From: an uncultured Bryobacteraceae bacterium
GTDB lineage: Bacteria > Acidobacteriota > Terriglobia > Bryobacterales > Bryobacteraceae
DNA: 64,000 bases
Assembly: GCA_937920635.1 (NCBI GenBank)
Contig: CAKZUE010000022.1
Coordinates: forward strand, 62,001-126,000
Direction of reading: 5' to 3'
The notes below the pieces were generated by a model, which was not told the origin of the DNA, searched no databases, and saw only the letters and a program-made list of their open reading frames with translations. Within the stretch, counting starts at the first letter, position 1. The number at the start of each line of letters is the position of its first letter. The translations under genes and the position numbers were made by a program. Of the stretch, positions 7,456-62,898 are shown piece after piece.

Positions 7456-7486
7456 AAAAAGGGGACAGGAACACAATACCCCTTTT
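7456..7486 (+). repeat. GGGGACAGG hairpin repeat, type A, copy 1
   Basis: AAAAAGGGG, then a 14-nt loop (ACAGGAACACAATA), then CCCCTTTT: an imperfect palindrome that abuts the thiE start codon. The same element recurs at 37498, 52255 and, inverted, at 62866. Here it separates the GTPase stop from thiE. Confidence 0.85.
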
Positions 7487-7520: not shown

Positions 7521-9257
7521 CTACCCGTCCGACGCCCCGCGCAACGCCTGCTCCAGCCGCTCCAGGTCCTGCCGGATCTCGTCCGCCTGCCCCTGCGCCG
7601 TGCTGAGCACCTGCTCCACGGTGTGGACCAGCGATTCGAGCCGCCGCTTCGACTCCGCCAGCAGCGTCCCGCAGGCTCCGGCGACTGCGTCATTCCATTG
7701 CGACGTCAGCCGCGCCAGGTTGATCTCCACCGCTCTCTCGATCTTGTTCCGGAAATGCCGCCGCACCATGCCGCCGAATAGGGCCATGGGAATCGCCCAC
7801 GACAGCAGCTCCCAGTTCCGGTCGAAGATCTTGCCGACGCGGATGTCCGGCTCCCGCGGTTCGGCAACCTGCATCTCCATCTGGGAGGTCTTCAGCGGCA
7901 CGCCCAGCGTCTCCAGCATTTTCTCGGATAGCCGGTTCCGGAAGTCCTGCAACGATTGCGACAACTGCCGGCTCACCCGCCGCACCGGTTCGAGAAACTC
8001 CTGCCGGTGGGCCGAGGAAAGCGTTGCCAGCTCGCGCCGCAGCGCCCCTTCCAGCCACGCCTCGAAGCGGTCCATCGCCGTCTGGAGGCTCGCCGTCCAG
8101 CCCGGGAACTGCGCTTCGAATTCGCTGAGCAGCCTTTTTACGATCCCCTCCGCCTCCGGGCGCAACCGGCTCTCGATCGACGCACGCGAAGTGGCCGTGG
8201 CGTGCCGGACGATCAGTTCCAGCCCCAGCCGCGTGTCGTCGAGCACCGCTTTCTCGCCCAGCACTCGCTGCCGCAGTTGTTCCCGCTCGCTGTCGGCGCG
8301 CTGGGCAGCCTTCAGCGCCACAATCAGATACTCGGCTGTTTCCTCCCCCAGGGACTCTATCTTGTGCTGGAGGATCTCTTCCCACTGCGTGGCGCCGTCT
8401 TTGCGGAACCGCCCCAGCAGCTCGTCTTCGATCTTCCGCCGGCAGTCTTCAAACCCGGGCTTCGCGGAATACGGATACACGGGCAGCCCGCCATCCCAGC
8501 GCGCGGCCAGTTGCCGGCGCACGAACTCTTCCACCTGCCCGCGGTCCTCGGCGTCGAGAAGGTCGACTTTGGTCAGCAGCAACGCAATCCGCGGCGTGTA
8601 GCGCTCCAGCTCCGCGATCAGCGCGATGTCGTGCTGCGTCAGCGGCGGATCCACGCTCACCGCCACCAGCGCCAGCCCCACGTTCGGCAGCCAGTCGCGC
8701 GACGCCTCCGTGTTGTGCTCCAGCACGCTCTCCATGCCGGGCGTATCCACGAACCGGATGCCCCGGTAGCGCTCCATCTCCGGCAGCCAGACGCGCACCC
8801 GTTCGGCGCCCTTCCGGTTGCCGGGGTTCCGGCTTTCGTCGACATAGTCGCGCAACGCCTCCACCGGGATCCGTTCACGGCGCCCGCCGGCAAATTCGAC
8901 TTCCGCCCGCTCGGGCTTCCCGTACTCGAGTTCGGTGACAATGCTGGTAACGGGAATCACGCCCACCGGCAGCAGCGAACGGCCGAGGAGATCGTTGAGA
9001 AAAGTCGTCTTGCCGGCCTTGAACCGCCCGAGAATGGCTACGTTAACGGCTCTTTCCGCGGCGAATTGACGCGTGCTTTCCAGGAAATCCCCGAGAGCTT
9101 CCAGTTGGTATTTCCCGATCAGCGAGTCGATCAGATCCAGCGCGCGCAGGTGTCTGCCGCCATTGCCCTGCGAGGGATCGTTCAGCGGCGCCGGTGCGCC
9201 CTGCTTTGCCGCCGCCCCTTCTGGCCTCGCCCTGTCTTCAGCCGTGTGTTCCATCAT
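7521..9257 (-). CDS. bacterial dynamin-like GTPase
   Basis: 578 residues. The GTPase domain is in the first half: P-loop GRFKAGKTTFLNDLLG, G2-like threonine in GVIPVTSIVTEL, G3 DTPGM and G4 TKVD. It is followed by long alpha-helical, glutamate/arginine-rich segments and a short hydrophobic segment near the C-terminus (SWAIPMALFGGMV), as in membrane-remodelling dynamin-like proteins with a paddle. Likely binds the inner membrane; cargo unknown. The start at 9257 (MMEHTAED) is preceded by a purine-rich stretch; an upstream ATG at 9296 is possible. It lies 117 nt downstream of the hydrogenase protease gene on the same strand. Confidence 0.85.
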   Translation of the reverse strand: MMEHTAEDRARPEGAAAKQGAPAPLNDPSQGNGGRHLRALDLIDSLIGKYQLEALGDFLESTRQFAAERAVNVAILGRFKAGKTTFLNDLLGRSLLPVGVIPVTSIVTELEYGKPERAEVEFAGGRRERIPVEALRDYVDESRNPGNRKGAERVRVWLPEMERYRGIRFVDTPGMESVLEHNTEASRDWLPNVGLALVAVSVDPPLTQHDIALIAELERYTPRIALLLTKVDLLDAEDRGQVEEFVRRQLAARWDGGLPVYPYSAKPGFEDCRRKIEDELLGRFRKDGATQWEEILQHKIESLGEETAEYLIVALKAAQRADSEREQLRQRVLGEKAVLDDTRLGLELIVRHATATSRASIESRLRPEAEGIVKRLLSEFEAQFPGWTASLQTAMDRFEAWLEGALRRELATLSSAHRQEFLEPVRRVSRQLSQSLQDFRNRLSEKMLETLGVPLKTSQMEMQVAEPREPDIRVGKIFDRNWELLSWAIPMALFGGMVRRHFRNKIERAVEINLARLTSQWNDAVAGACGTLLAESKRRLESLVHTVEQVLSTAQGQADEIRQDLERLEQALRGASDG

Positions 9258-9374
9258 GGCAGTCGCCTCGTCCTCTCTTGCCCGCAAACCGGGCATCGGG
9301 TAGGAGTCATCGGCCGTGGGAAACGGCGATTCAGGGCGGACTCCACCGCCACCGATCTCATTATCCCAAATGGT

Positions 9375-36539: not shown

Positions 36540-37499
36540 ATGTTGATCGCCGCGAAATACGAGAAAAAGCTCGGCCCCGCCACGCGCGAGGCATTCGGAC
36601 GCGCGCTGGCGGAGCTCGGCCGTGAAAACCCTGACATCGTGGTCGGCGACGCGGACCTGACCAAGTCCACGATGACCACTTATTTCGCCAAGGAGTTCCC
36701 GGAGCGTCTGTTCGAGTGCGGCATCGCCGAGGCGAACATGGTGGCCATTGGCGCGGGCCTCGCGCTGGCAGGCAAGATCCCCTTCGTGTCCAGCTTTTCG
36801 GCGTTCGTCATGACCAAGGGCTTCGAGCAGCTCCGCGTGCTCGTCGCCTATCCGAACGTCAATCTGAAAGTGGTCGGCACCCACAGCGGCATTTCGATCG
36901 GCGAGGATGGCCCTTCGCAGATGAGCGTGGAGGAGATCGCCCTGGCCTGCGCGTTGCCAAACTTCGTCGTGATTTCGCCCGCTGATGAGGCCGCCACGAA
37001 GTGGGCCGTGCGCTGGGCCGCCGAGCACTACGGCCCCGTGTTCATCCGCACGGGGCGGCCCAAGGCGCCCATCGTCTACAACTCGGACGCCTCTTTCGAA
37101 ATCGGCAAAGCCGTCGAACTCGTGCCGGGCACGGACGTCACCATCGTCGCCACCGGATTGATGGTCGCCGAGGCGCTGCTCGCCGCAGGACAACTGGAAG
37201 GCGAGGGCATCTCGGCCCGCGTGCTCGACATCCACACGATCAAACCGCTGGACGAAGAGGCGCTGGAGCGCGCCGCCCGCGAGACGGGCGCTCTGGTCGT
37301 CGTCGAAGAGCATCTGGTCGACTCCGGCCTTGGCGTGCGCGTGGCGCAGGCGCTGGCCAAGCGCTGCCCCGCCCCGGTGGAGTTCATCGGCCTCGAAGGC
37401 TACGCCGAATCCGGCTCGCCTGACGAACTGCTGGACAAGTACGGCCTGCGCGCCCCGAACATCGTCGACGCCGTGCGCCGCGTCCTCGCCCGCAAATAA
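36540..37499 (+). CDS. transketolase, C-terminal subunit
   Basis: 319 residues: the PYR domain (LFECGIAEANMVAIGAGLAL with catalytic Glu) and the C-terminal domain (VLDIHTIKPLDEEALERAA, VVVEEHLVDSGLG). Partner of the preceding subunit; ATG 36540 comes 1 nt after its stop, with GAAGGAG upstream. The stop codon lies at the edge of a type A hairpin repeat. Could instead be a transketolase-like dihydroxyacetone enzyme, but the pair is standard. Confidence 0.93.
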   Translation: MLIAAKYEKKLGPATREAFGRALAELGRENPDIVVGDADLTKSTMTTYFAKEFPERLFECGIAEANMVAIGAGLALAGKIPFVSSFSAFVMTKGFEQLRVLVAYPNVNLKVVGTHSGISIGEDGPSQMSVEEIALACALPNFVVISPADEAATKWAVRWAAEHYGPVFIRTGRPKAPIVYNSDASFEIGKAVELVPGTDVTIVATGLMVAEALLAAGQLEGEGISARVLDIHTIKPLDEEALERAARETGALVVVEEHLVDSGLGVRVAQALAKRCPAPVEFIGLEGYAESGSPDELLDKYGLRAPNIVDAVRRVLARK

Positions 37500-37527
37500 A
37501 AGGGGACAGGAACACAATTCCCCTTTT
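37498..37527 (+). repeat. GGGGACAGG hairpin repeat, type A, copy 2
   Basis: AAAAGGGG-ACAGGAACACAATT-CCCCTTTT; begins in the transketolase stop codon. May end transcription since the 3' arm is CCCCTTTT. Confidence 0.85.
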
Positions 37528-48626: not shown

Positions 48627-49312
48627 CCGCGCCCGAAGACGCCGAATGGAAGCTGAATTACTTCAGCTATTTCACGGAAATCGAGGAGCATTTTCAGCGC
48701 GCCCGCGGCACGGGGCTGTTTCTGATGTCGCCGCTCGACTGGGCGCTGGTTGAGTCCTGGAAAAACGCGGGCGTGCCGCTGGAAGCCGTCCTGCGCGGCA
48801 TCGACGCGGCGTTCGAGAAGTGGCGCTCCCGCAGGCAGCGCACCCAGCGCGTCAACAGCCTCGCCTATTGCGCCCAGGCGGTGATGCAGGAAGCCGAGGC
48901 GATGGCCAGGAACCGGGCGGACGCCGCAGAAAGCTCCGCCGAGCCCGGCATCCCTCCGGAAGCCGTGCGCCAGCACCTCGAGAAAGGCGCTTCGGCGCTG
49001 GCGGCGCTGGAGGGCTATGAAGAGATCGCCGCGTCTCTGCGTGCGATCCTTTCCGAGTTCGAACGCCACGCAGCCGACCTGCGCGAACTCGAACTGCGGT
49101 TGACGGCGCTCGAAGACAGGATGGCGTCCATCGCCCGCACCAGGCTGAGCGAAGAGCAGTTGCTCGCCATGCGGCGCGAACTCGAGCGCGACGTCGCCCC
49201 TTACCGCAGCCGGATGAGCGCCGAGCAACTGGCGCGGCTCGAGAAGTCCTTCCTCGACCGCAAGGTCTACGAGGCTGCCGGGCTGCCGCGGCTGAGCCTG
49301 TTCTATCTGTAG
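48623..49312 (+). CDS. conserved hypothetical protein coupled to coaX
   Basis: 229 residues, soluble and mostly helical. N-terminus EWKLNYFSYFTEIEEHFQRA, then MSPLDWALVESWKNAGVPLE and IDAAFEKWRSRR; long coiled-coil-like middle; ends with ARLEKSFLDRKVYEAAGLPR. The N-terminal part resembles DnaD/replication-type helical domains only loosely, so I assign no function. Start overlaps coaX as ATGA. Confidence 0.7.
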   Translation: MTAPEDAEWKLNYFSYFTEIEEHFQRARGTGLFLMSPLDWALVESWKNAGVPLEAVLRGIDAAFEKWRSRRQRTQRVNSLAYCAQAVMQEAEAMARNRADAAESSAEPGIPPEAVRQHLEKGASALAALEGYEEIAASLRAILSEFERHAADLRELELRLTALEDRMASIARTRLSEEQLLAMRRELERDVAPYRSRMSAEQLARLEKSFLDRKVYEAAGLPRLSLFYL

Positions 49313-49368: not shown

Positions 49369-49396
49369 TTGACCGCCGGCTTGGGCATGATATAGA
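49369..49396 (+). promoter_or_regulatory. sigma70-like promoter of a small-RNA candidate
   Basis: TTGACC (49369-49374), 16-nt spacer, TATAGA (49391-49396). No start codon with a protein-like frame follows; the structured element at 49403-49504 does. Confidence 0.65.
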
Positions 49397-49407
49397 CTGC
49401 GGAACAA

Positions 49408-49419
49408 CAGCGTACGCTG
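49408..49419. promoter_or_regulatory. 12-bp perfect palindrome after the promoter
   Basis: CAGCGTACGCTG, 5 nt after the expected start site. Could be an operator or a small 5' hairpin of the RNA. Confidence 0.4.
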
Positions 49420-49461
49420 ACAACAACGCCAGCGTTTTCCTCCGATTCTGGCTGGCTGTTC

Positions 49462-49504
49462 GCCGGTGAGGGTCTTCCTCCGAGTCCTCACCGGCTTTCT
49501 CTTT
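49462..49504 (+). terminator. intrinsic terminator of the small-RNA candidate
   Basis: 10-bp GC-rich stem with a 14-nt loop and the tail TTTCTCTTT. Could also end read-through from coaX. Confidence 0.6.
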
Positions 49505-49686
49505 CCGGGCTTTGGACAGCGGCCGGATGTAAGGCCGGACTTCACCTGTAAGCACGGAAGCGCAGGACTCGGCCCCGCCGCGGGTCTGTGGCACGCGCGG
49601 AGGGGGCGTGGCCGCGCATCCGTGCCGCGCGTGGAGGCGGCGCCAGAGGCCGGAGCGGGCGGCCCCTGCATGGTCAGCCCCGCGTT
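49505..49686. other. GC-rich intergenic stretch without a gene
   Basis: No coding frame that looks real. One 9-bp inverted repeat CACGCGCGG/CCGCGCGTG (49592-49600 and 49625-49633) could form a hairpin near the 3' end of the FkbM gene. Confidence 0.5.
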
Positions 49687-50595
49687 TCAGCGAAGGTAGA
49701 GCACTTCGGGGCGGACCAGCCGCTGCTCGGGCGCATCGCAGGCGCCGCATTCCACCTGATAGCCGCTCCAGGCTTCCCGCGCCGCCTGGGGCACCTCCAA
49801 CGGGTGCTCCCAATCGTGATACACGGCGATCGAGAGCCGCGGGTGATGGCGCGCGAGCGTCTGGCGGGCGCCCCGAAGAGCGCGGACCTCAGCGCCCTCG
49901 ATGTCCATCTTGATGAAGTCGATACGCTCGAGGCCGAGCTCCGCCGCCAGCGAGTCGATCGTTACCAGCGGGACGCGGACGGTGCGCGTCACCTTGCTGA
50001 GGTTCATCACGAACGTGGCGGCCGCTTCGTTGCCTTCCTCGATTTTGAGCTCGAGTTCGTCGGGACGGTCCCAGACACCTTTGGGCACCAGCAGGACGCG
50101 CCCCGAGGCGATCTCCGGGGCGAAGTTGCGGCGCAGGCATTCGATGTTGTCCGGCGCCGGCTCGATGGCCACCACCCGGGCGGCGCCCGCATTCAGCGCG
50201 AACCGGGTGAAGACGCCGACGTTGGCGCCGCAGTCGAGCACTGTGTCGCCCTTCTGGACAAAGTGCGCGCCGCTGCCATACAGATGAACAGCCTGTTCGG
50301 CCAGGTTGAACGGCAGGGTGTAGTGGCTGCCCGGAGCAGCCCAGAAACGGCCATACGGGGTGTCGTACAGTTCGAGCCCCTCCAATTCCTTTTGCAGAAG
50401 CCTTGTTTTGGAGAGGATTTCGTCCTTGACGCGCGTCAATTCGCGCTTGTGTTCGGGGATGCGCCATGCCTGACGGGGCGGGCAGCCGCGGTTGTCGCGA
50501 AACGTGGCAATCAGGTAATAACGCAGGGGCAGATACTGCCAGGCGCCGGCGGCAAGGGCAGCCAGCAGCGCGGGCACAACAATCCACTTCTTCAC
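49687..50595 (-). CDS. FkbM family methyltransferase with N-terminal membrane anchor
   Basis: 302 residues. N-terminal hydrophobic anchor (WIVVPALLAALAAGAWQYL), then class I SAM fold: motif I TVLDCGANVGVFTRFAL, acidic VVAIEPAPDNIECLRRN, and the FkbM motif IDFIKMDIEGAEVRALRGA. O-methylates sugars or lipids in known cases; substrate unknown. GTG start; a TAGCCT box is 7 nt upstream. Confidence 0.88.
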   Translation of the reverse strand: MKKWIVVPALLAALAAGAWQYLPLRYYLIATFRDNRGCPPRQAWRIPEHKRELTRVKDEILSKTRLLQKELEGLELYDTPYGRFWAAPGSHYTLPFNLAEQAVHLYGSGAHFVQKGDTVLDCGANVGVFTRFALNAGAARVVAIEPAPDNIECLRRNFAPEIASGRVLLVPKGVWDRPDELELKIEEGNEAAATFVMNLSKVTRTVRVPLVTIDSLAAELGLERIDFIKMDIEGAEVRALRGARQTLARHHPRLSIAVYHDWEHPLEVPQAAREAWSGYQVECGACDAPEQRLVRPEVLYLR

Positions 50596-52254: not shown

Positions 52255-52287
52255 AAAAAAGGGGACAGGAACACAATTCCCCTTTTT
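52255..52287 (+). repeat. GGGGACAGG hairpin repeat, type A, copy 3
   Basis: AAAAAAGGGG-ACAGGAACACAATT-CCCCTTTTT, 5 nt after the coiled-coil gene's stop. Might double as a terminator. Confidence 0.85.
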
Positions 52288-62865: not shown

Positions 62866-62898
62866 AAAAAGGGGAATTGTGTTCCTGTCCCCTTTTTT
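62866..62898 (-). repeat. GGGGACAGG hairpin repeat, type A, copy 4 (inverted)
   Basis: AAAAAGGGG-AATTGTGTTCCTGT-CCCCTTTTTT, the reverse complement of the other type A copies. Confidence 0.85.

Follow-up and report, generated by a model that had tools for sequence, protein, structure and literature searches.

The ar14/NfeR1 RNAs of Alphaproteobacteria (the "cuckoo" family) fold into three hairpins, each with CCUCCUCCC in an unpaired region; the motif is conserved and the stems are divergent (PMC10746234). The LhrC RNA of Listeria has three UCCC sites, located in loop A, in the linker and in the terminator loop, which bind the Shine-Dalgarno (SD) region of the lapB mRNA; LhrC is multicopy, and RsaE and FsrA are among the other sRNAs with the UCCC motif (PMC4132741).

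The locus analysed here lies at 49369-49506 (+) of the window, by which we mean the whole 64-kb stretch of DNA under study. Like the ar14/cuckoo RNAs, it has several hairpins with the same anti-SD loop on divergent stems; there are two here, but the second CCTCCGA occurs in only 15 of 75 distinct homologues. It departs from them in carrying UUCCUCCGA(G) in the loop instead of CCUCCUCCC, in belonging to another phylum and in having the terminator hairpin as its constant part. The sequence CCTCCTCCC was found in 0 of 96 homologues when the hairpin and the 100 nt upstream of it were searched. With LhrC the locus shares a C-rich anti-SD site in the terminator loop and a redundancy of sites. The differences are that it has UCCUCCGA in place of UCCC (there is no TCCC in TTCCTCCGA, the 9-mer of its loops) and that, in contrast to the multicopy LhrC, it gives a single match in 151 of the 159 matched genomes and two in the other 8. 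In mode of action the RNA would look like the ar14/cuckoo and LhrC RNAs, without their motifs; it looks like the same solution as in Alphaproteobacteria and Listeria, namely an anti-SD loop present once or several times per RNA. Two other groups invite comparison. The CcsR sRNAs of Rhodobacter have C/U-rich anti-SD loops, on a transcript shared with the gene for a small RNA-binding protein; a C/U-rich anti-SD loop is what our locus has in common with CcsR. In protein-titrating RNAs such as CsrB and RsmZ, it is the transcribed strand whose hairpin loops display GGA, whereas here the strand with the T run carries CCTCC and GGA lies on the other strand.

Solibacter usitatus presumably belongs to the same GTDB family as the window. 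The Solibacter-1 motif, reported from this organism, has no Rfam number in the table that lists it, and the same source gives Acido-1 (RF01686) and Acido-Lenti-1 (RF01687) as non-coding RNA candidates of Acidobacteria (PMC2864571). The covariance models of Acido-1 and Acido-Lenti-1 do not match our locus. An Rfam 15 scan of the window gave no match at the element, a local scan to E 10 returned only sR28 (E 4.2, below its cut-off), and a scan of 20 homologous loci (147 kb) gave 0 matches. An earlier note on this DNA had proposed an undescribed small-RNA candidate, and no Rfam covariance model, that of Acido-1 included, speaks against it. Among the open-licence papers listed in our searches we found no description of this RNA and, apart from the Solibacter-1 candidate, no described sRNA in Bryobacteraceae. 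Leaving Solibacter-1 aside, the element looks like an undescribed gene-silencing RNA. It provides a well-supported RNA family for Bryobacteraceae, as we take the bacterial family to be.

Anatomy of the locus and its conservation in the genus

The element follows a 253-aa ORF without Pfam match, which ends at 49312; a type III pantothenate kinase gene lies closely upstream of that ORF. On its other side lies a convergent FkbM-type methyltransferase gene (49687-50595, minus strand). Its parts are:

49369..49396 (+), -35/-10 promoter TTGACC-16-TATAGA of sigma-70 type, with -35 TTGACC at 49369-49374, a 16-nt spacer and -10 TATAGA at 49391-49396; sequence reading and promoter scan
49408..49419 (+), 12-bp palindrome CAGCGTACGCTG, the lineage-specific 5' hairpin; sequence reading
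49428..49456 (+), hairpin 1, with stem arms GCCAGC (49428-49433) and GCTGGC (49451-49456) and TTCCTCCGA in the loop at 49437-49445; sequence and folds
49462..49495 (+), hairpin 2, the terminator and family-defining module, with an 11-bp stem (arms GCCGGTGAGGG at 49462-49472 and TCCTCACCGGC at 49485-49495) and the 12-nt loop TCTTCCTCCGAG, in which TTCCTCCGA occupies 49475-49483; covariance model R1
49496..49506 (+), T-rich terminator tail TTTCTCTTTCC, directly 3' of hairpin 2 (tail TTTCTCTTT from 49496); sequence reading

Direct reading agrees with the earlier note on the promoter and on the two hairpins, each with TTCCTCCGA in its loop. TGA precedes TATAGA, making an extended -10, and the promoter scan reported one site in 1.4 kb (0.1 expected), with its second hexamer two bases further on than TATAGA. 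The 12-bp palindrome that the note had placed at the expected start does exist; it sits just downstream of that start. The terminator is borne out by the T-rich tail after hairpin 2 and by at least five T in the eight bases after the stem in 85 of 96 homologues, but not by the terminator scan, which accepts loops of 3-8 only and gave 0 sites at the element (1.0 expected by chance).

When 61 genomes were searched with BLASTN, each of the four remaining members of the genus gave matches that span the expected transcript. Among the five genus genomes, mean pairwise identity reaches 84% for the 5' hairpin, 95% for hairpin 1 and 96.5% for hairpin 2. It drops to 35% for the linker that precedes hairpin 1 and to 32% for the downstream flank (32-62% over the linkers and this flank), and stands at 65% for the upstream flank. 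The conserved blocks coincide with the hairpins, as they do for an RNA gene. In one relative the palindrome reads ACGGCGTGCGCCGT, that is, its changes are paired. TTGAC can be seen by eye at a similar place in the four same-genus relatives, one of which (G002) has a poor -10. As aligned with MAFFT, the -35 columns show 53% identity and the -10 columns 56%, no higher than the 65% of the upstream flank; a shifted row is part of the reason. Among the homologues that have hairpin 1 its stem is invariant, so that covariation lends hairpin 1 no support; in alignments A1 and A2, hairpin 1 is shifted in 3 of 8 rows. The expectation that the stems covary holds for hairpin 2 (see below); the GCCAGC/GCTGGC stem offers no variation by which to judge it. 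A lack of conservation in near relatives had been named beforehand as the point on which the proposal would fall: the hairpins are kept within the genus, and hairpin 2 across the family.

Hairpin 2 as the constant part across the family

In other genera, BLASTN matches are mostly limited to hairpin 2. An alignment of 18 sequences (A3) has 98.5% of its stem cells paired, as against 86.7% when shuffled, and two-sided changes in 7 of 11 pairs (3.4 when shuffled), with an almost constant loop. The covariance model built from these 18 sequences, R1, matches 154 of 200 family genomes at E 0.01, covering 60 of 76 genera and 115 of 140 genomes of good quality; the 25 good-quality genomes without a match are an upper bound on true absences, as are all misses here, the R1 searches having used strict filters. 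At E 1e-5, 159 of the order's 257 genomes have a match, none of them outside a single family that, going by record titles, we take as Bryobacteraceae (Acidobacteriota). A sample of 399 genomes across the class has 69 with a match at E 1e-6, again without exception from the family of the window. In the window's own genome there is one R1 match, the other BLAST matches being short fragments.

An exact pattern scan over 84,980 species, one genome per species, returned 70 loci, 65 of them labelled acidobacterial. The other five are labelled Arcobacter, Bordetella, Acidimicrobiia, Sumerlaeaceae and Planctomycetota; L075 passes R1, and the Planctomycetota locus (L077), which fails R1 at E 1e-4, is taken as a chance match. 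A viral origin was rejected, the exact pattern having 0 matches in viral contigs. At one locus (L199; G177:C88, 72-113 and 271-312, minus strand) the RNA is duplicated in tandem at a distance of about 200 nt, and both copies have a second CCTCC upstream.

The larger alignment A4 (96 matches, 86 distinct rows) has 97.7% of cells paired, compared with 85.2% in shuffles, and two-sided changes in 143 cells, compared with 37.5. When the partner columns were slid by one to three positions, paired cells fell to 31-47%. On a weaker measure, the number of pairs with two-sided changes, the alignment scores 8, the shuffles average 6.3, and 38 of 500 shuffles attain the score of 8. The stem of hairpin 2 varies by paired changes around a loop core, UCCUCCGA, that is nearly constant. 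Among the 86 distinct rows, TCCTCCGA is present in 85 and CCTCC in all 86, the preceding bases being variable, and the loop reads CCCTCCTCCGAG in 4 of the 96 homologues; 69 of the 96 rows behind these loop statistics were fetched by a pattern containing the loop, and the rest by BLAST or R1, which also reward it.

Because the rows had been fetched in this way, we added a test that located the hairpin without recourse to its loop. A conserved neighbour, a 463-aa membrane-protein-like sequence without Pfam hit, which to us reads like an Nramp transporter, was searched for in 101 family genomes. It matched in 34, of which 30 loci were read, 29 of them with DNA downstream of the gene, and uninterrupted stems of at least 9 bp were listed within 230 nt downstream. 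Hairpins of at least 11 bp were present in 17 of the 29 genomes, and in 17 of 17 such a loop contained CCTCC, as CCTCCGA in 15, CCTCCAG in one and CCTCCTA in one, the neighbour having been chosen for often adjoining the RNA, which leaves the test free of loop selection and not of locus selection. The remaining 12 genomes had no hairpin of at least 9 bp, two of them offering less than 230 nt to read. Seven of the 26 listed hairpins lacked CCTCC; one of these has a stem of 12 bp, and the other six have stems of 9-10 bp.

The homologues fall into lineage types that are unlike upstream of hairpin 2, and hairpin 2 is the only part common to the types seen. Once similar upstream parts and rows with less than 90 nt upstream had been removed from the 96, 75 distinct RNAs were left. 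An upstream CCTCCGA is found in 15 of these (0.65 in shuffles) and an upstream CCTCC in 28 (9.3 expected), counts that 0 of 300 shuffle sets reached in either case; GGAGG is not enriched (4 of 75; 5.75 expected). By eye, 14 of the 15 upstream CCTCCGA copies lie in a predicted hairpin loop, on stems that differ between lineages. The two-loop RNA of the window is one of several types, its second loop being a lineage-specific addition. The two identical loops emphasized in the earlier note are therefore real at this locus and do not define the family.

A coding explanation was tried on 11 homologues and rejected: they share no start codon upstream of hairpin 2, in line with the earlier statement that no coding frame explains the element. 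A GTG within the stem of hairpin 2, at the same place in 7 of the 11, is the one start that is shared, and the frame it opens continues past the terminator into sequence that is dissimilar between homologues and ends at different points. Parts of the three frames stay open across homologues, but no start is common to them, and the changes in hairpin 2 are paired.

Proposed function and alternative readings

We think it probable that the locus encodes a trans-acting sRNA of about 90-100 nt, with its own promoter and with hairpin 2 as its end, which silences by base pairing at SD sequences, probably with the assistance of Hfq. Computation shows a gene-like anatomy, a hairpin 2 conserved in structure and in loop, a motif that recurs in a second hairpin, and genes for Hfq. 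The loop is complementary to the SD core, and the sRNA-type features comprise a consensus match to a promoter, a terminator with U-rich end and a conserved seed, with covariation on hairpin 2 only. A conserved anti-SD loop core, a U-rich terminator and Hfq genes together argue for a trans-acting sRNA that blocks ribosome-binding sites. We infer that transcription would start at the RNA's own promoter and stop at hairpin 2, and that the exposed loop UCUUCCUCCGAG would pair with mRNAs at UCGGAGGA-like SD sites; in the lineage of the window, the second loop UUCCUCCGA of hairpin 1 may pair likewise. Such pairing would block binding of the 30S subunit and so repress translation of the putative target set, with Hfq probably bound to the U-rich 3' end. 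An Hfq gene is present in 19 of 19 genomes searched in the family (f1), a count of genes and not of binding. Hfq was also found in both genomes searched of f2, whereas in the neighbouring family f3 the search gave no Hfq for 8 of 10 genomes (G038, G040-G043 and G045-G047).

Several other readings have to be weighed. Folding alone cannot assign the strand, since both strands fold about equally well: the 100-nt RNA has -40.6 kcal/mol (z -5.2) and the opposite strand over the same 100 nt has -42.6 kcal/mol (z -4.3), 0 of 200 shuffles being as good in either case. Hairpins with GGA loops act as decoys of CsrA/Rsm-type proteins, and TCGGAGGAA stands in both hairpins of the minus strand, so one could envision a minus-strand RNA that titrates such a protein through GGAGGA. 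The T run follows the plus-strand stem in the 85 homologues mentioned above, whereas the A run (five A in the eight bases before the stem) that a minus-strand terminator requires is seen in 0 of 96; it is on these grounds that the plus strand was assigned, and the promoter-like site is on the plus strand as well. We consider a minus-strand decoy very unlikely. Still further from credible is a chance pair of hairpins without function. The two copies of TTCCTCCGA in the element are the only ones in the 64-kb window, with 0.60 expected, and at least two copies did arise in 12 of 100 window shuffles, but conservation in 159 of the 257 order genomes, with paired changes in the stem, makes accident a barely tenable account.

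The readings that retain some weight concern what the plus-strand hairpin does. It might be only a conserved intrinsic terminator, or the 3' UTR end of the co-oriented upstream gene, its loop being kept because it serves termination or shields the 3' end of the mRNA rather than for pairing. In 61 of 66 loci (60 of 65 without L077) the closest ORF on the upstream side points the same way, which would suit this reading, as would the restriction of the shared sequence to hairpin 2. However, termination needs no fixed loop, and here it is the stem that varies, by paired changes, while UCCUCCGA stays; moreover, the upstream genes come from several unrelated clusters, a promoter-like site intervenes between gene and hairpin in the window, and the loop motif recurs in a second hairpin that is not a terminator. 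We therefore hold the terminator reading to be unlikely, and we give slightly less credence still to the idea that the loops are bound by a protein (an RNA-binding regulator or a ribosomal protein), the RNA serving as decoy or scaffold instead of pairing with mRNAs. That the conserved core UCCUCCGA is longer than CCUCC alone, that it occupies two loops here and that no family-wide mRNA target emerged would all fit a protein site. Against this, the core is the exact complement of SD-type sites, and two of the 17 genomes in the neighbour set keep CCTCC and lose the GA (CCTCCAG and CCTCCTA), which favours an anti-SD core.

On the preferred reading, that of a base-pairing RNA, targets should carry the loop complement ahead of their start codons. 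In the window's own genome the pattern CGGAGGAN{3,9}ATG has 82 matches and its reverse 19, an excess that shows SD sites in general and not a preference for this loop. Among 30 of these sites inspected, five head an ORF of at least 100 aa, two of the five lying inside long open frames. The 9-nt complement precedes ATG at 24 sites in the five genus genomes (G000, 3; G001, 2; G002, 8; G003, 7; G004, 4), compared with 4 for the reversed sequence; one of the 24 is the sRNA's own antisense. Orthologous ORFs stand behind these sites in no more than two pairs, a doubtful pair of short ORFs and a protein of about 1030 aa. In this second pair (L216 and L217, from two genus genomes), all 12 loop-complementary bases are present, one base before the ATG, and the mRNA is a candidate target; a search of the window's own genome did not turn up this gene. 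The leaders of L216 and L217 (about 60 nt before position 1501) are nearly identical, the proteins being 70% identical, and hold CTCGGAGGAAGA before the ATG.

Over the wider set, an 11-nt complement precedes ATG in 77 of 200 genomes, with 96 matches listed and about 30 for the reversed sequence (hand counts). Thirty of these loci were read and mostly have unrelated ORFs downstream; three represent one shared site deep in long open frames, and two share a 63-aa ORF. For the multi-target role that the earlier note suggested, a target conserved across the family was found neither with the 9-nt complement in the five genus genomes nor with the 11-nt complement in the 200. GGAGG before the ATG of an ORF of at least 100 aa was counted at 35 sites in 510 kb of family DNA (L077 left out), a small sample for flank statistics. 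It is tempting to speculate, though we hold this more tentatively than the base-pairing function itself and would put it at rather less than an even chance, that the RNA is a family-wide regulator in which the terminator hairpin, with its near-invariant anti-SD loop and covarying stem, is the functional constant part joined to fast-changing 5' parts. A second copy of the loop would have been gained in several lineages (the GCCAGC, GGGCGAU and GACGC types), possibly independently, and the RNA might act as a general modulator of a small set of mRNAs with strong GGAGG sites, not of one mRNA.

Two observations concern other parts of the window. A fluoride riboswitch (RF01734, 43.6 bits) at 9294-9359 (-) stands directly before a 591-aa ORF for a dynamin-type GTPase (7521-9296, minus strand), which is a Dynamin_N protein and not an obvious fluoride channel gene. 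The 18-mer AAAAGGGGACAGGAACAC occurs in four exact copies where 0 are expected, at 7457-7474, 37498-37515 and 52257-52274 (+) and at 62879-62896 (-); in the two copies that were read, CCCCTTTT comes next, which makes this a dispersed palindromic element.
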